Below, one piece after another: positions 40,613 through 48,111 of a stretch of DNA of 56,406 nt. The translations under genes were made by a program, and so were the position numbers. The notes beneath the pieces are model-generated. The model saw only the letters and a list, made by a program, of their open reading frames with translations. It was not told where the DNA came from and did not search any database. The DNA is from a bacterium GBS-1 (GTDB taxonomy: Bacteria; Synergistota; GBS-1). Every line of letters starts with the position of its first letter. The first letter of the stretch is position 1. The DNA lies in assembly GCA_001443005.1 (NCBI GenBank), contig LEKQ01000003.1:1-56406 (forward strand). The letters run 5' to 3'.

Positions 40613-41307
40613 GAATGAGCTTATGGCTTAGACATGAGAAACTAGTAGAGATGAAGGTACTAAGAAGCTCGGCCCTATTTGTCGCAGGGCTCGGAGGGCT
40701 AGGCTCAACTGTATCAGAGCTACTCGTCAGACTCGGCATAGGAAAGCTATATATCGCTGATAACGGCCTCGTTGACGAACCAGATTTAAACAGGCAGATA
40801 CTATACTCTAAGGGAGACATAGGAAAGAGAAAGGTCGATGCAGCAATGGAAAGACTCTCACGCCTGACCTCGGAAACCTCGCTTCAAGGGATATTCACAG
40901 ACATAAACGATGAGAGATTCTCCCTTCCTGAGGACATCCTTGGAGTTGTGGACTGCCTCGATAACTGGAGAACTCGCTTCCGCCTTGAGGCCTTAGCAAG
41001 AGAAAGAGGGATATTCCTCGTTCATGGAGGGGTTAAGGAGATGTACGGCCAAGTGACGACTATCCTACCGCCTGAAACCCCCTCCCTTAAGGAGATATTG
41101 GGAGAAGTAAAGGAGGAGGGAACTCTCCAGGTATTCCCTCCCTTGGTAACCGCTATCGCATCGCTCCAAGCATGGGAAGCGACTAACGCCATTCTTGGAA
41201 GACCTCGCCTTCTGGGTAAGCTACTGATATTAGACCTCTGGGCTCCTTCCTTAGAGGTAGTTCAGCTAAATAGGAGGAAAGCTGAGATAGATCCATCGGA
41301 GCTATAA
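40609..41307 (+). CDS. MoeB/ThiF/HesA-family adenylyltransferase (E1-like)
   Basis: A 232-residue E1-like enzyme that adenylates the C-terminal glycine of a ubiquitin-like sulfur carrier. The nucleotide motif GLGGLGST is near residue 28, the ATP-binding DNGLVDEPDLNRQIL near 51, and VDCLDNWRTRF near 115. The CxxC pairs that bind structural zinc in many MoeB/ThiF proteins are absent, as in some shorter HesA types. It is coupled to the MoaD-like gene by an ATGA overlap. The pair probably works in molybdenum or tungsten cofactor synthesis. Its last 125 bp overlap the converging aroKB gene. Confidence 0.88.
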   Translation: MRMSLWLRHEKLVEMKVLRSSALFVAGLGGLGSTVSELLVRLGIGKLYIADNGLVDEPDLNRQILYSKGDIGKRKVDAAMERLSRLTSETSLQGIFTDINDERFSLPEDILGVVDCLDNWRTRFRLEALARERGIFLVHGGVKEMYGQVTTILPPETPSLKEILGEVKEEGTLQVFPPLVTAIASLQAWEATNAILGRPRLLGKLLILDLWAPSLEVVQLNRRKAEIDPSEL

Positions 41308-42769
41308 TGGGCTCACCTATATCCTTAACTAGGACGAAGTTAACCTTTCCTCCTCTGATTTTCTTATCCTGAGCCATCTTCACCCCTATCTCACCTAGGT
41401 CTATGCTCCTTAACTCCGTAGGCATAGATAGGGATTCAAGCATCTTAACCACCCTCTCGGATACCCCCTTTCTTGAGATGCCAAGCCTCTCCCCAAGCTT
41501 AAGAGCGAAGACCATCCCAAGGCTAACCGCCTCACCATGCTTAAGGCCGTAAGCGGACTCAATTGCGTGCCCGAGGGTGTGCCCAAAGTTAAGGATATGC
41601 CTTATCCCCTTATCGAAGAGATCTTTACTGGCTATGGAAAGCTTAAGCTCAATGGCCATCCTTATGACCTCAATCAAGGTCTTTAAGTTTCTCCTCCTTA
41701 TCTGATCCAGCTTCTCCTCTATAAAGCTAAACAAGGGTGGGGAAGCGACAAGAGCTATCTTTATCGCTTCAACCAACCCTTCGTTATAATCTCTGGGCTC
41801 TTGAGAAAGCGTAAAAACTGGGTCAATTAGGACGATCTTTGGTACCTTAAAGGCCCCTATGACGTTCTTTATCTCACCAAGGTTAATGGCGGTCTTTCCA
41901 CCGATTGAAGCATCTACTTGGGCAAGCAAGGTCGTGGGAACGGAGACGAAATCGCAACCCCTCTTAAAGGTAGCAGATACAAAGCCAACAGCATCGCTTA
42001 AAGCCCCCCCTCCGAAGGAGACTATACAATCTTTCCTTTCCACTCCCCAATCTATGAGCCTTCTATAAAGCCTTTCAACCACCTTTATATCTTTGGCCTC
42101 CTCCCCATCAGGAAGGACCTCCACCCTCTCATTCTCGATTAGGACACCATATATATCGCGAACCTTACGAGTTGTTATAAGGGGAAAATCCCTAATGCCT
42201 TCCCACTTAACTTTACCTATCTGGGCAGAGTGTAAAGAGGAGTGAACTTCTATCTCTTCAAAAGCTCCGTTAAGTCTCATGGCCATAAGCGCGCAGATCT
42301 CCCTAGGAGAAAGGCCATCCCCATCTATAATATGATGAGCCATCTCATAAAGCTCCTTCCTCGCTTCATAAAGGTTCATGAGCCTCTCCCTAAGGTTACC
42401 CCTTAGAAGGGGCCTATCCTGAGCACAGACGCGAAGCCTTCTTTCAAGCTCATCTATGGACACCCTTATATAGAAGGATAGACTTTTACTAAGTATGGCC
42501 TCCCTGCTTTCGGGATCGAGGATGGCTCCTCCACCTAAGGATATAACCCCTCCCCTATCGATGGAGCGAAGGACGACCTTCCTCTCTATCTCCCTGAAGG
42601 TCCTCTCACCAAGCTTATCGAATATCTCGGGAACAGACATCCCCGTTTCCCTTTCTATCTCCTTATCCGTATCGGTGAAAGGCCAACCCAACGCTTCAGC
42701 CAATAGCTCACCTATCGTGCTCTTCCCAGACCCCGATAAACCGATTATCGTGATAGCCTTCCTCTCCAT
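41183..42769 (-). CDS. aroKB: Bifunctional shikimate kinase / 3-dehydroquinate synthase
   Basis: A 528-residue fusion of two shikimate-pathway enzymes. Residues ~1-165 are shikimate kinase, with Walker A GLSGSGKST (13-21), DTDKEIE and GGGAILD motifs. Residues ~175-490 are 3-dehydroquinate synthase, with DGEEAKD, SFGGGALSDAVGFVSATFKRG, PTTLLAQVDASIGGKTAIN, and the zinc-site regions LNFGHTLGHAIES and KHGEAVSLGM. The same fusion order is known in Thermotoga. The normal end would be near the IIAPMDLSQL segment; about 35-40 further residues come from reading antisense through the MoaD-E1 gene (125-bp overlap). It overlaps aroC by 25 nt and is the last gene of the aro operon. Confidence 0.94.
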   Translation of the reverse strand: MERKAITIIGLSGSGKSTIGELLAEALGWPFTDTDKEIERETGMSVPEIFDKLGERTFREIERKVVLRSIDRGGVISLGGGAILDPESREAILSKSLSFYIRVSIDELERRLRVCAQDRPLLRGNLRERLMNLYEARKELYEMAHHIIDGDGLSPREICALMAMRLNGAFEEIEVHSSLHSAQIGKVKWEGIRDFPLITTRKVRDIYGVLIENERVEVLPDGEEAKDIKVVERLYRRLIDWGVERKDCIVSFGGGALSDAVGFVSATFKRGCDFVSVPTTLLAQVDASIGGKTAINLGEIKNVIGAFKVPKIVLIDPVFTLSQEPRDYNEGLVEAIKIALVASPPLFSFIEEKLDQIRRRNLKTLIEVIRMAIELKLSIASKDLFDKGIRHILNFGHTLGHAIESAYGLKHGEAVSLGMVFALKLGERLGISRKGVSERVVKMLESLSMPTELRSIDLGEIGVKMAQDKKIRGGKVNFVLVKDIGEPIIAPMDLSQLSSYLAELPLRKEPRGLISVAYPEGEVFQEWR

Positions 42770-43878
42770 TCCTCAACCCTCCTCTTAAGCTCAGACATAC
42801 TATCCCCTCCAAACTTCTCCAAAAGGAAGCTAAGCAAGGTAAAGGAAACCATAGCCTCCCCAACGACGGATGCAGCTGGGACCACAACCGTATCAGACCT
42901 TATGTAAGCTAATGGACTCTCCTCCATCGTCTTTAAATCTACGGACCTATCTATCGCTGGAGCGGTGGGGATGGGCTTAAGATAGGCCGTTATAACTATG
43001 TCCTCACCGTTGGAAACTCCCCCCTCTATTCCTCCCGCCCTGTTGGAAACCCTCCTTACTACCCCATTCTTAACGATAAAGCCATCCTGAAACTCGCTGC
43101 CGTACATCTTGGAGCCATCAATGGCCTCTCCTATCTCAACCGCCTTAACCGAAGGTATGGAAAGAAGGGAGAAGCCTAAAGCCGCGTCAAGCCTTCTATC
43201 CCATTGGACATAACTACCGAGACCCAAGGGGACGTTCCTCGCAACAACTGTAAAGCTTCCCCCAAGACTTTCTCCCTTACTTTTAGCCAGATCTATCTCC
43301 TCAACCATGAGCTCACTCACCCTTTCATCGGGGCAGTAAACCGGTGAGCTGTCCCTCTTAGATAGGAGATCCTCTATTTCGTGATACTTCCTTTCAAGGG
43401 AAACCTTACCTATGCTCCTTGTGAAGGCAAAAACCTCTATATCAAGCTCTCTCAGGGCAAGATAGCATATAGCTCCAAGGAGGGTCCTTATGGCCGTCTC
43501 TCGCGCGCTGGCTCTTTCAGCGGGAATATTCAGGTCCTCAAGGCCATACTTAAGGTAACCCACATAATCGGCATGTCCCGGCCTGGGAACGCTCCTAACC
43601 CCAAAGGAAGGATTATCGCCTCTATTTTCAAGCTCAACAAGTATAGGTGCCCCTGTTGTAACGCCATCGTGAACCCCGCCAACAACCTTAGGCTCATCCA
43701 TCTCTATCTCCATCCTCTTCCCCCTGCCATATCCTCCCCGCCTCCTTTCCATGAACCACCTTAAGCAGCTCATATCCAGCTTCAACCCCGAGGGCATGCC
43801 ATCGAGAACCCCAACTATCTTGTTTCCATGAGACTCACCAGCGGTCATCATCCTAAGCATGATATACTCACCTCGCAA
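42745..43878 (-). CDS. aroC: Chorismate synthase
   Basis: A 377-residue enzyme that converts EPSP to chorismate with reduced flavin, the last common step of aromatic synthesis. Visible motifs are GESHG at residues ~14-18, RRRGGYGRGKRM near 45, RPGHADYVGYLKYG near 100, RASARETA near 125, and the C-terminal segments SNRAGGIEGGVSNGEDI and DSTVV-like RSDTVVVPAASVVGEAM. Length fits the family. It starts inside the end of aroA (11-nt overlap) and overlaps aroKB by 25 nt, so the operon is translationally coupled. Expression should be governed by the aromatic leader upstream of aroF. Confidence 0.96.
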   Translation of the reverse strand: MRGEYIMLRMMTAGESHGNKIVGVLDGMPSGLKLDMSCLRWFMERRRGGYGRGKRMEIEMDEPKVVGGVHDGVTTGAPILVELENRGDNPSFGVRSVPRPGHADYVGYLKYGLEDLNIPAERASARETAIRTLLGAICYLALRELDIEVFAFTRSIGKVSLERKYHEIEDLLSKRDSSPVYCPDERVSELMVEEIDLAKSKGESLGGSFTVVARNVPLGLGSYVQWDRRLDAALGFSLLSIPSVKAVEIGEAIDGSKMYGSEFQDGFIVKNGVVRRVSNRAGGIEGGVSNGEDIVITAYLKPIPTAPAIDRSVDLKTMEESPLAYIRSDTVVVPAASVVGEAMVSFTLLSFLLEKFGGDSMSELKRRVEEWRGRLSR

Positions 43879-45142
43879 GCTCTCCTAATATATCGAAGAA
43901 GCTCGGGAAGGATATCTTAACCCAATTTGCACCCTTTATCCTCGAAGCTCCTTCATCCTCGACACACAAAGAGGCGATGCTTAAAAGCATGGCTATCCTA
44001 TGATCCCCATGGGAGTTAAGGTCCTTAGCGGAGTGAAGACCCTTCCCACCACGCACCAAGAAGCCATCCTCAAGTTCCTCTATATCCACGCCCATTTTCC
44101 TAAGCTCCAAGACCAAGGAGGCTATCCTGTCACTCTCCTTCACCCTAAGCTCTCCCGCACCCCTAACGACCGTCTCGCCTTCAGCGAAGGCACCAAGCAG
44201 AGCCACAAGAGGTATCTCATCTATCATCTGCGGAGCCTCCTCCGGAGAAACAACCGTACCGACGAGTTTGGAAGAAGAGACCCTTATCGATCCTATAGGC
44301 TCAAGCTCCTCACCCTTAAGATTGACCTCCACATTCGCACCCATCCTCTCAAGAACCCTTAATAGTCCTGTTCTCGTAGGATTAAGGTTAACATTCTCTA
44401 TAACTATGTCCCCCTTACCATGGATAACGCCCAGCGTGATAAAGAAGGCAGCAGAGGAAAAGTCCCCGGGAACCTCAAGCTTCAATGGGGAAAGCTCGTC
44501 AGTAGGCTCTATCTCAATGCTCCCGTTTTTCTCCGTCAAGCGAGCCCCCATAGCCTTAAGCATCCTCTCGGTGTGATCCCTGCTTTTCCAAGGCTCCCTA
44601 TAAACGCTCTTACCAGAGGCGAAAAGCGAAGCCAATATAAAGGCACTTTTAACTTGAGCGCTTGCAACTGGTGACTCATACTCTATACCTTTAAGATCCC
44701 CACCCCTTATGGCTATGGGAAGAAGCGCCCCTCCTTCACGCCCCAAAACCGTGGCCCCCATCTCCCTTAACGGCTTGACCACCCTGAGCATCGGCCTTCT
44801 GCTTAAACTCTTATCTCCGTAAAGGGTGAAGCAACCATCCCTTGAAGCCAAAAGGCCCATGCCGATTCTCGCCGTTGTTCCAGAGTTGCCGCAATATATA
44901 GGCTTTGAGGGCTCCCTAAAGGGGCGAGGCTTAACAACCAACTTCTTAAGGTCTCCTTCGAACTCGGTCCCGCATAGCTTAAGCAGATTTAGTGTCCTTT
45001 TAACGTCATCGGCATCAAGTACATTTCTTATCTCCGAAGGAGCCGAAGCTATGGATGAGAAAAACAAAGCCCTATGACTTATCGACTTATCAGGTGGCAC
45101 GACGACTACGCCCTTAACTCTTTGAGCTCTTCGAAGCTCCAT
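43868..45142 (-). CDS. aroA: 3-phosphoshikimate 1-carboxyvinyltransferase (EPSP synthase)
   Basis: A 424-residue enzyme that adds enolpyruvate to shikimate 3-phosphate. Signatures are PPDKSISHRAL at about 17-27, CGNSGTTARIGMGLLA near 83, the RPM segment near 116, KSAFILASL near 163, and LRVKESDRIASLV near 337. A Gly-rich GNSGT with Ala following fits glyphosate-binding type enzymes only loosely, so I draw no conclusion on class. The ATG at 45142 lies behind GGGGGGAAGAAG and 37 nt inside aroF; aroC overlaps by 11 nt at the other end. Confidence 0.95.
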   Translation of the reverse strand: MELRRAQRVKGVVVVPPDKSISHRALFFSSIASAPSEIRNVLDADDVKRTLNLLKLCGTEFEGDLKKLVVKPRPFREPSKPIYCGNSGTTARIGMGLLASRDGCFTLYGDKSLSRRPMLRVVKPLREMGATVLGREGGALLPIAIRGGDLKGIEYESPVASAQVKSAFILASLFASGKSVYREPWKSRDHTERMLKAMGARLTEKNGSIEIEPTDELSPLKLEVPGDFSSAAFFITLGVIHGKGDIVIENVNLNPTRTGLLRVLERMGANVEVNLKGEELEPIGSIRVSSSKLVGTVVSPEEAPQMIDEIPLVALLGAFAEGETVVRGAGELRVKESDRIASLVLELRKMGVDIEELEDGFLVRGGKGLHSAKDLNSHGDHRIAMLLSIASLCVEDEGASRIKGANWVKISFPSFFDILGELAR

Positions 45143-45972
45143 CTTCTTCCCCCCAGAACTAAATTTATTCCTTCCATCTCACAAAGCCTTACTATCGAGG
45201 ACAAAACCTCCTTAAACTCTTCGAAGTTCAGGCTCTGATAACCATCGGATAGAGCATCCTCAGGCCTCGGATGGACCTCAACCATCAAGGCATGAGCACC
45301 AGCGGCTAAAACAGCCTTAGAAAGCGGGGCTATTATATCCCTTCTTCCCGTAGCATGACTTAGGTCAACACATATGGGAAGGTGAGAGATGCTCCTAACT
45401 ATGGGAACAGCGGATATATCCAGCGTGTTTCGCGTGTACCTCTCAAAGGTCCTTATACCCCTTTCGCATAGTATTATCCGCTCATTACCGTGGCAGGCTA
45501 TATACTCGGCTGCAAGCAACCATTCCTCTATTGTCGCCATAAAGCCCCTTTTAAGCAAAACTGGTTTATCGACCTTGCCCAGTGCTTTCAAAAGGGTATA
45601 GTTATACATGTTCCTCGTACCCACCTGAAGCACATCGGCATACTCATAAATAAGGTCAACCATAGTCGTATCCATTACCTCGGTAACGACCTTCATGCCA
45701 TACCTATCGGCAGCTTCTCTAAGAAGCTTCAAGCCACGCTCCTCCAAACCTTGAAAGGAGTAAGGAGATGTTCTGGGCTTAAATGCTCCTCCTCTTAAGA
45801 GCCTCACACCAAGGCTTGACAAAAAGCTCGCTATCTCGTCTATCTGCTCTGCTGATTCAACCGAGCACGGCCCAGCTATGATATTGAAGTAGCTTCCTCC
45901 TATGGGAAGATCCCCTACCCATACCACGCTATCCTCTCTCTGCCTATCCCTTGAGACTAGCTTCAACCCCAA
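45106..45972 (-). CDS. aroF: 3-deoxy-7-phosphoheptulonate (DAHP) synthase, type I-beta
   Basis: A 288-residue entry enzyme of the shikimate pathway (PEP plus erythrose 4-phosphate). Core motifs are IIAGPCSVES near 32, RGGAFKPRTSPYSFQG near 58, QVGTRNMYNYTLL near 115, LLKRGFMATIEEW near 137, and DLSHATGRRD near 208. Only ~28 residues precede the catalytic core, so the N-terminal ACT/ferredoxin-like regulatory domain of the Thermotoga enzyme is missing, and no chorismate mutase is fused. Feedback control by the enzyme is therefore unlikely. The start is a TTG at 45972 behind AAGGAGG (10-nt spacing). It is the first gene after the aromatic attenuator. Confidence 0.93.
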   Translation of the reverse strand: MGLKLVSRDRQREDSVVWVGDLPIGGSYFNIIAGPCSVESAEQIDEIASFLSSLGVRLLRGGAFKPRTSPYSFQGLEERGLKLLREAADRYGMKVVTEVMDTTMVDLIYEYADVLQVGTRNMYNYTLLKALGKVDKPVLLKRGFMATIEEWLLAAEYIACHGNERIILCERGIRTFERYTRNTLDISAVPIVRSISHLPICVDLSHATGRRDIIAPLSKAVLAAGAHALMVEVHPRPEDALSDGYQSLNFEEFKEVLSSIVRLCEMEGINLVLGGRRWSFEELKELRA

Positions 45973-45998: not shown

Positions 45999-46052
45999 AA
46001 AAAAAGGGGCCTCCAGGCAAATACCGAATAGGGGTATTTACCTGGAGGCCCC
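45999..46052 (-). terminator. Attenuator terminator upstream of aroF
   Basis: On the minus strand a 20-bp stem (46033-46052 with 46006-46025, one G-U pair) beginning GGGGCCTCCAGG is followed by seven Us (45999-46005). It ends 26 nt before the aroF start and would stop transcription before the operon. Its 5' half overlaps the antiterminator arm, so only one of the two can form. Confidence 0.92.
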
Positions 46053-46082
46053 TTAAGCCCCCGTAGGTAAATACCCCTATTC
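46026..46082 (-). promoter_or_regulatory. Antiterminator of the aromatic attenuator
   Basis: A perfect 18-bp inverted repeat: GAATAGGGGTATTTACCT (46065-46082, transcribed first) pairs with AGGTAAATACCCCTATTC (46026-46043). The first arm begins at the codon after the last Phe of the leader peptide and includes its stop codon. A ribosome that finishes the peptide covers this arm and lets the terminator form. One stalled earlier at Trp or Tyr leaves it free, and the operon is read. Confidence 0.9.
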
Positions 46083-46136
46083 AAAGAAGAAGTAATAATA
46101 CCAGCAGGCCCCTACTTTGCTTACCACTATATTCAT
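46077..46136 (-). CDS. Aromatic leader peptide of the aro operon
   Basis: A 19-codon frame, MNIVVSKVGACWYYYFFFE, ends at TAG 46077-46079. Codons 12-18 are Trp, three Tyr and three Phe without interruption, which is very unlikely by chance. The ATG at 46136 lies about 10 nt after the predicted transcription start, with a modest AAAGAG as ribosome binding site. The run is followed directly by the antiterminator arm and then the terminator, the arrangement of trp, phe and his leader peptides in enteric bacteria. It is read as a cis-acting sensor of charged Trp-, Tyr- and Phe-tRNA; the peptide itself needs no function. Confidence 0.92.
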   Translation of the reverse strand: MNIVVSKVGACWYYYFFFE

Positions 46137-46152
46137 GGCTCTTTAGCTAAGA

Positions 46153-46180
46153 ATTATATCATATACCGGTTAAAATGCAA
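46153..46180 (-). promoter_or_regulatory. Promoter of the aro leader and operon
   Basis: On the minus strand, -35 TTGCAT (46175-46180) and -10 TATAAT (46153-46158) are 16 bp apart. Transcription should start near 46146, giving a very short 5' end before the leader peptide. Confidence 0.8.
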
Positions 46181-46183
46181 TAC

Positions 46184-46212
46184 TTCTTAACGAAAAATTT
46201 TTATGCTATAAT
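46184..46212 (+). promoter_or_regulatory. Promoter of the V/A-ATPase operon
   Basis: An extended -10, TGCTATAAT (TATAAT at 46207-46212), has a weak -35 TTCTTA at 46184-46189 with 17-bp spacing. The expected start of transcription (about 46219) falls on the first ATG of the subunit I gene. It lies back to back with the aro promoter. Confidence 0.6.
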
Positions 46213-46218
46213 ATTTCC

Positions 46219-48111
46219 ATGCCAGTGGCGAAGATGTATCTTCTAAACTGCATAACCCATAAAAATTACGCAAGAAAGCTCCTTGCAAGGCTATCCTCTA
46301 TTGAAGCAATAGAACTTTGCGATATTCGAAAGACTCCCCTTTATAAGAAGGGCTATCTTCTGAGTATGACGGTTAACGAGAAGGAAGAAGAGGAAGTAGC
46401 CAGCATAAAGAGCAGGCTTCTAAGGATCTTCGAAAACCTCGATGCCCAACCCCCTCCCATCAAAGAGACCCCACAAAGCGTAGAGGGCGATATTCTCTCT
46501 CCCGAAGAACTCAAGAAGTTAACTGAGATAGAGAAAGAAGCGGAGCGCTTTGGAACAACAAGAGATGTCTTGCTAAGAAGCAGGGAAAGAATAAAAACTT
46601 ACCTCTCTAAGGTTCAAAACCTGCTGGGAATAGATATAAGGATAGAGGATTTAAGAAGCTTGAAGTACCTTTATTACTCCTTCGGAGTGGTCCCACAAGC
46701 GCAGATGCCTCGACTGATAAGAAGCTTGGAAAACGTTCCCCATGTTATAGTCCCCGTCAGAGAGGAACACCTCTTCATCTTCGGGCTAAAGAAAGACAAA
46801 GACAAGATAGAGGAGATACTAAAGAGCGTATTCTTCGAGAGGCTTGAGCTTCCCACAAGATATCGTGGCGAACCGGAAAATGCCGCGAAGCTGATAGAGC
46901 TCGAGATAAAAAGGTTAGATTTGGCACTTGAAAACTTGAAGATAAGGGTTAAGAGGTTCTTCTTCGAAAGAGAGGCTTTCTTAAAGGAGCTCTGGCAGAG
47001 GGTGATGTGGAGGGACCTCTCGATAAGAGTCAGAAAGTTTTGTGGAAGGACCAACTACTTTATAGCTCTATCAGGTTGGGTTCCTGAAAGCAAAAGAAAG
47101 ATAGTGGAGCAAGCGATAGACGAGGCCTGCGAAGGCAAAGCCCTGTACGAGTGGATCGAGGCTAAGCACGCCCCCAAGGAGCTGATCCCCCCAACCCTAA
47201 TGACCAATAACCCGATCCTCAAGCCCTTCGAGGCTCTCGTTAAGCTCTATGGGATACCGAACCACGATGATATAGATCCAACCCCCTTGATAGCCATAAG
47301 CTATCCCTTGTTTTTCGGCTTCATGTTTGGAGATATAGGACAAGGAGCGGTGCTCTACCTTCTAAGCAGATTAGGAGAGCTGAAGATCCCATCCCTTAAG
47401 GGGATCTTCTCGCTCATTAAGTGGTGCTCCCTCTCGTCCATCCTGTTTGGCTTCCTTTACGGTCATATCTTTGGCTTCGGCGATATCCTAAAGCCTATAA
47501 TCTTCTCCCCGATGCACGATATCCACACAGCGATATGGAGCTCCATAGCCATGGGAGTCCTCTTTCTTATAGTGGGTTATGCTATGTCTCTTTTAAGCCA
47601 CTACAGAGCTCATGGCCTCGGAAGGGAGTTCATCTTTGGCAAGCATGGCCTCGCGGGTTTCCTGTTCTTCCTATCCCTAATCTCCATCTTTTTCCTCTGG
47701 AAAAAAGCAGGAGCCATTTCCTTACTCCTTCCCATACCTCCGGCATTGATGATATACATAGGGCTAAGAGACAAAAACCCAATAGAGGGGATATTCTCCC
47801 CATTAATCTCGCTCATAGAGAGCTTCAGCAATATAGTTTCCTTCATAAGGCTTGGAGCCTTCGCCTTAAACCACTCCCTTCTCTTCATGGCATTCTTCAC
47901 GCTGGGTGAGATGCTTGAAGGCTCCTTCATGGGAAGCTTTGGAAGCTTAACAATGGTAATTTTGGGTAACGTTGTGATAATATTACTTGAGGGGCTTATA
48001 GTTGGAATTCAGGCGCTCAGGTTAAACCTATACGAGTTCTTCTCCAAGTTCTACAAGGGAGAGGGAAGGCCCTTTAAACCTCTAAGCCCAAGGACGAAGG
48101 AGACAGAATGA
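46219..48111 (+). CDS. ntpI: V/A-type ATPase subunit I (a)
   Basis: A 630-residue subunit with an N-terminal soluble half (about 1-340, with long helices that contact the peripheral stalks) and a C-terminal half of about eight membrane helices. The family segments YGIPNHDDIDPTPLIAISYPLFFGFMFGDIGQGAVL (near 355) and NIVSFIRLGAFALNHSLLFMAFF (near 538, containing the essential Arg of the ion half-channels) are present. The first ATG coincides with the predicted transcription start and lacks a Shine-Dalgarno. Either the mRNA is leaderless or the second ATG at 46234 is used. It opens the operon I-K-F-E-A-B-D. Confidence 0.93.
   Translation: MPVAKMYLLNCITHKNYARKLLARLSSIEAIELCDIRKTPLYKKGYLLSMTVNEKEEEEVASIKSRLLRIFENLDAQPPPIKETPQSVEGDILSPEELKKLTEIEKEAERFGTTRDVLLRSRERIKTYLSKVQNLLGIDIRIEDLRSLKYLYYSFGVVPQAQMPRLIRSLENVPHVIVPVREEHLFIFGLKKDKDKIEEILKSVFFERLELPTRYRGEPENAAKLIELEIKRLDLALENLKIRVKRFFFEREAFLKELWQRVMWRDLSIRVRKFCGRTNYFIALSGWVPESKRKIVEQAIDEACEGKALYEWIEAKHAPKELIPPTLMTNNPILKPFEALVKLYGIPNHDDIDPTPLIAISYPLFFGFMFGDIGQGAVLYLLSRLGELKIPSLKGIFSLIKWCSLSSILFGFLYGHIFGFGDILKPIIFSPMHDIHTAIWSSIAMGVLFLIVGYAMSLLSHYRAHGLGREFIFGKHGLAGFLFFLSLISIFFLWKKAGAISLLLPIPPALMIYIGLRDKNPIEGIFSPLISLIESFSNIVSFIRLGAFALNHSLLFMAFFTLGEMLEGSFMGSFGSLTMVILGNVVIILLEGLIVGIQALRLNLYEFFSKFYKGEGRPFKPLSPRTKETE

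Follow-up and report, generated by a model that had tools for sequence, protein, structure and literature searches.

Leader-peptide attenuators are usually taught as devices in which one amino acid controls one terminal branch of a pathway. Multivalent attenuators, in which one leader carries control codons for several end products, are known from the ilvGMEDA, ilvBN and thrABC operons of Escherichia coli. For the aromatic pathway, the AroR leader (Phe-Tyr-Phe) of Corynebacterium glutamicum is described as controlling aroF by attenuation and as responding to Phe, not to Tyr (PMC11802643, citing Neshat et al. 2014). In a survey of five genomes, Thermovirga lienii of the Synergistetes among them, Stav and co-workers (Stav et al. 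2019; PMC6429828, Fig. 6b) described two Phe- and Tyr-containing uORFs on shikimate genes, and a Phe uORF (uORFC-13-1) has been predicted for aroF of Acholeplasma (PMC8632094).

We analysed a stretch of 56,406 nucleotides, referred to as the window, from a genome of the Synergistota lineage GBS-1 (G000). The region ahead of aroF-aroA-aroC-aroKB at positions 46180-45999 on the minus strand was read directly, which confirmed every element described in the initial annotation, namely the promoter, a 19-codon frame, an 18-bp antiterminator holding the stop codon, a 20-bp terminator with U7 and the order of the aro operon. The operon is very probably under the control of a ribosome-mediated transcription attenuator. 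All four genes lie on the minus strand and overlap: aroF (45106-45972) encodes DAHP synthase, aroA (43868-45142; TIGR01356, 408 bits) EPSP synthase, aroC (42745-43878; TIGR00033, 350 bits) chorismate synthase and aroKB (41183-42769) a fusion of shikimate kinase and 3-dehydroquinate synthase. The best match of the fusion was PRK13951, whose 371 bits are below its cut-off, while the aroB domain scored above its own cut-off.

The promoter of the leader consists of a -35 element TTGCAT (46175-46180) and a -10 element TATAAT (46153-46158), both on the minus strand. The hexamers and the 16-nt length of the spacer are identical in a sister genome, G002. Only three of six bases of the -35 element agree with the consensus, and because of this weak element a default promoter scan did not list the promoter. 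AroF and the gene for V-ATPase subunit I, which begins at 46219, are divergently oriented in both genomes, and a terminator placed downstream of the aroF promoter and ahead of the gene can thus act only on aroF. The ATG of aroF is located 26 bases past the T-run of the terminator and is preceded by AGGAGG. At 46207-46221, a TATAAT ends 6 nt before the ATG of the V-ATPase subunit I gene, in G000 as well as in G002, and the mRNA of this gene is probably leaderless. From this spacing in two genera, it seems that short 5′ UTRs, or none at all, are tolerated here.

The leader frame, MNIVVSKVGACWYYYFFFE, extends from 46136 to 46077 on the minus strand, TAG stop codon included, and has 19 codons; an in-frame TAA is found nine bases 5′ of its ATG at 46136. 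Its ortholog in G002 is MNIWADRIRDFGYYYFFFE*. Codons 12-18 form an uninterrupted aromatic run, TGG TAT TAT TAC TTC TTC TTT (W12, Y13-15, F16-18; 46083-46103). No strong Shine-Dalgarno sequence was seen for the leader in G000 or G002; the leader ATG is conserved, and the 5′ UTR before it would measure about 10 nt. To place the aromatic run against its background, 322 kb of G000 were scanned in stretches on both strands. Short ORFs with at least five aromatic residues out of seven occurred at 0.04 per kb, and this leader was the sole case with an intrinsic terminator no more than 220 nt away. A search of the four family genomes with the degenerate codon pattern for Y3F3E*, allowing three mismatches, gave exact matches only here and at the orthologous site of G002.

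Three hairpins can form in the leader RNA. Folding predicts a 1:2 (protector) hairpin (46066-46102) in which the Tyr and Phe codons pair with the first arm of the antiterminator; the predicted structure is weak in G000 (-9.0 kcal/mol) and reaches -13.5 kcal/mol in G002, with a similar shape. The antiterminator comprises 18 perfect pairs between its 5′ arm (46082-46065), which holds Glu19 and the stop codon, and its 3′ arm (46043-46026), which is common to the 5′ arm and the loop of the terminator. The terminator has 22-nt arms at 46054-46033 and 46025-46004, with a core of 20 pairs (46052-46033 with 46025-46006) that flanking A-U pairs extend to 22, and ends in a U7 tract (46005-45999). Antiterminator and terminator are mutually exclusive because of the common arm. 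Compared with dinucleotide shuffles, the terminator folds with z = -8.1 and the terminator-antiterminator region with z = -5.6. The antiterminator fold is predicted to be favoured in the unbound full-length RNA, so termination by default in the absence of a ribosome would hinge on kinetics.

The family of the window comprises four sequenced species, and the comparison of the leader rests on two genomes, G000 and G002. G002 represents another genus, in which AroF is 78% identical. It has kept the promoter, the start codon, the ATGAATATA start, the 19 codons, the Y3F3E* end, both hairpins and the U-tract. Base differences in the leader are distributed unevenly, with 12 in the 36 bases of codons 1-12 and none in the 24 bases of codons 13-20: codons 4-12 diverged, and Tyr3-Phe3-Glu-stop is identical at the nucleotide level. 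Five differences fall within the paired regions, all without breaking a pair, an outcome that was reached with p ~3 × 10−4 when equally many substitutions were placed at random. At leader nucleotide 94 (46043), located in the shared arm, A is replaced by G in G002, accompanied by U to C exchanges at nucleotide 72, its partner in the antiterminator, and at nucleotide 122, its partner in the terminator. This triple change from U-A-U to C-G-C shows directly that selection acts on both alternative structures. The terminator of G002 is one G-C pair shorter, both partners having been lost together, and the two remaining changes preserve pairing. In G003, the contig ends inside the 3′ arm of the terminator, and this arm is equal to that of G002; the leader lies beyond the contig end. 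Neither a matching leader nor an aroF ortholog was found in the 77% complete assembly of G001. A leader-like DNA match in a further genome, G176, covered only 22 nt with no leader ORF nearby and looks like a chance match.

The initial annotation had proposed to search relatives for the W/Y/F run, the repeat and the U-tract, and regarded loss of the aromatic run or of the exclusive hairpins as evidence against ribosome-mediated attenuation of the shikimate operon. Y3F3, both hairpins and the U-tract persist in G002; codon 12 is Gly instead of Trp. Conservation and covariation in the second genus thus support its mechanism, and attenuation by the supply of Tyr and Phe can be considered well supported at the sequence level.

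From the arrangement of the leader we infer its translation, the positions of ribosome stalling and the response to amino acids. Transcription would start about 10 nt 5′ of the leader ATG, with a ribosome trailing the polymerase through the leader. With ample charged tRNA-Tyr and tRNA-Phe, the ribosome would reach the stop codon and cover the first arm of the antiterminator, which would let the terminator form and end transcription at U7. If Tyr or Phe is scarce, the ribosome would wait within Y3F3 and break the 1:2 hairpin; the first arm would then be available to the shared arm, allowing read-through into the operon. A shortage of Trp may work likewise in this species via codon 12, which is not conserved. 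We modelled the stalls assuming a ribosome footprint of 13 nt counted from the A-site codon. Stalling at Trp12, Tyr13 or Tyr14 left the whole antiterminator (-40.0 kcal/mol), stalling at Tyr15, Phe16, Phe17 and Phe18 left -37.2, -34.5, -26.4 and -19.0 kcal/mol, respectively, and a ribosome on the stop codon abolished the main antiterminator stem. Hence the geometry of a graded read-through, as suggested in the initial annotation, is arithmetically right within this model and its assumed footprint.

The DAHP synthase is of type I-beta and consists of the catalytic domain only: its match to NCBIfam PRK08673 (429 bits) covers profile positions 70-333 of 338, the alignment with PDB entry 1rzm begins at residue 69 and that with the 272-residue 3pg8 at residue 4. 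The profile and the PDB alignments agree that the N-terminal regulatory domain is absent. In Thermotoga maritima, the N-terminal domain of DAHP synthase confers feedback inhibition by Tyr and Phe. As the domain is lacking in the enzyme of this family, most of the feedback may fall to attenuation. In the majority of the other phylum members, the aroF reading frame is longer and could hold an N-terminal domain. In the 98.5% complete assembly of G000, Pfam searches detected neither prephenate dehydratase (PF00800) nor prephenate dehydrogenase (PF02153). The relatives G001-G003 possess prephenate dehydratase, in G001 and G002 with an adjoining dehydrogenase-like gene. A single gap may hide both genes in G000, or the species may lack them; if PheA and TyrA were truly absent, sensing of Tyr and Phe would be hard to explain here.

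We extended the analysis to aroF upstream regions of other genomes. Among the Synergistota, about 52 of about 58 regions with enough sequence carry an aromatic-rich short ORF, most of them with an intrinsic terminator before aroF. Approximately 32 of these leaders, from many families, share a core, GQWR[YF]YASG or GLWLY[YC]ATG, with an invariant Trp codon and form one type. Among the loci L077-L103 and L118-L136, leaders of this type read GQWR[YF]YASG...RGNP or, as a variant, GLWLYYATG...RRDPSS, and a terminator usually stands before aroF. In this type, the Trp and Tyr codons are placed inside a nearly perfect hairpin, GGCCAGUGGCG...CGCCAGUGGCC, with the Tyr codons in the loop. In an alignment of 26 sequences, most of its pairs are present in almost every one; since the pairs vary little, this is a matter of conservation and not of covariation. 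The hairpin is absent from the leaders of G000 and G002. The GQWR-type leader and that of the window are different designs that work alike. About 18 leaders of the phylum contain Tyr/Phe runs such as YYYFYFF.

Comparable leaders were found in other phyla. Four Chloroflexi loci (L032, L064, L041 and L060) have aromatic ORFs followed by terminators, approximately 435-270 bases before the aroF match; their runs include FGYYYF and FFFYYYYF, and one terminator reads GCACCGAGCATCGGCTCGGTGC-T6. In two loci of the Peribacteria/Peregrinibacteria (L005 and L006), a leader approximately 390-290 bases ahead of the aroF match contains ...NSFNWAFFYF...; one arm of an antiterminator is located at its stop codon, and the terminator, which has a long T-run, overlaps this antiterminator. 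This is the same architecture as in the window, probably of independent origin. Short aromatic ORFs upstream of aroF in Paenibacillus were set aside, as no clear terminator was present. We tentatively propose that in the Synergistota several unrelated leader designs wire the first shikimate gene to mixed aromatic codons, that the same has arisen independently in part of the Chloroflexi and Peribacteria/Peregrinibacteria, and that the commonest design, whose hairpin holds an invariant Trp codon together with Tyr codons, would read all three aromatic tRNAs at once; on present evidence this proposal is somewhat less likely than not.

Among the alternative readings of the window's leader, the one that fares best is a true three-way sensor, as claimed in the initial annotation, in which shortage of Trp, Tyr or Phe would each give read-through, full for Trp and Tyr and partial for Phe. 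Trp12 adjoins the Tyr run, and its modelled stall frees the whole antiterminator; the invariant Trp codon of the GQWR/GLWL-type leaders in most of the phylum and the Trp codon of the Peribacteria leaders point in the same direction. However, the leader has just one Trp codon, which is codon 12 in G000 and codon 4 in G002. Stalling at the latter, early codon should leave the 1:2 hairpin intact and cause no antitermination. Codon 12 of G002 (GGG) extends the 1:2 hairpin, and pairing of the RNA alone may therefore set the sequence of this codon. Furthermore, the trp operon of G000 has a separate leader, MFKKKEKTLSLSNHIMNWWWQAYKPAAA, with Trp-Trp-Trp and its own terminators (contig C1, position 72413; L165). 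The organism thus appears to use attenuation. In view of this leader and of the moved Trp codon, sensing of Trp is considered possible; sensing of Tyr and Phe is well supported. A three-way response is conceivable, with the balance somewhat against it; of the original claim, the part concerning the perfectly conserved Tyr and Phe codons stands.

Arrest by the nascent peptide is very unlikely. Here, the aromatic peptide would sense a free metabolite within the ribosome, in the way TnaC senses tryptophan, and the clustering of aromatic residues at the C-terminus near the stop codon would suit such a peptide. Unlike in known arrest peptides, residues 4-12 diverged almost wholly between the two genera, the run matches the end products of the operon, and the classic geometry of codon stalling fits. 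Still less credible is a T-box, a riboswitch or a protein-binding leader in place of sensing by the ribosome. Such elements control aromatic genes in other bacteria, but the best scores of Rfam covariance models at the locus were far below gathering, no Rfam family matched the aroF leaders of the phylum, the Chloroflexi or the Peribacteria/Peregrinibacteria, and what has been conserved is a run of codons for the products of the pathway itself. Equally improbable is an ordinary intergenic terminator or chance inverted repeat without leader function: strong intergenic terminators are frequent and no good Shine-Dalgarno sequence precedes the leader, but no transcript arrives from upstream of the divergent genes, the antiterminator adds a third overlapping element with a compensatory change, and the combination of aromatic ORF and terminator is unique in 322 kb.

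Ribosome-mediated attenuation of aroF belongs to a kind of regulation that is already known; the locus of the window is a solid addition to it, which the phylum-wide pattern of aromatic aroF leaders extends. No description of this member or of the family-specific Y3F3 design was found in the literature searched, which included the main text of the 2019 survey. Nor does the window hold the sole aromatic leader of the common pathway: AroR of C. glutamicum is in the literature, and such leaders occur in most of the phylum. For the combination of all three amino acids, support is partial. As far as the published description goes, the locus resembles aroR-aroF of C. glutamicum in having aromatic leader codons before a DAHP synthase gene and ribosome-mediated attenuation; it differs in that no Trp codon is mentioned there, the response is reported to be to Phe and not to Tyr, and the organism is unrelated. 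It shares with the uORFs of the 2019 survey and of Acholeplasma short Phe/Tyr ORFs, predicted to be regulatory, upstream of shikimate genes, whereas the design specific to the window's family is unmentioned in the text of these papers, figures and supplements apart.

The E. coli trp, pheA and his attenuators show the same order of leader codons, 1:2 hairpin, 2:3 antiterminator and 3:4 terminator with a U-tract. They sense one amino acid at one end of a pathway, whereas the window's leader stands before the common pathway and has mixed codons. In the window, a single leader seems to read several tRNAs at the entry to the entire aromatic pathway, and the survey of the phylum provides dozens of naturally varied leaders, some with Trp and some lacking it, in which to test how several amino acids are weighed by one leader. 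In serving several products of a shared pathway, it is comparable to the leaders of ilvGMEDA, ilvBN and thrABC, which differ in that their products are the branched-chain amino acids or Thr and Ile and not the aromatic ones.
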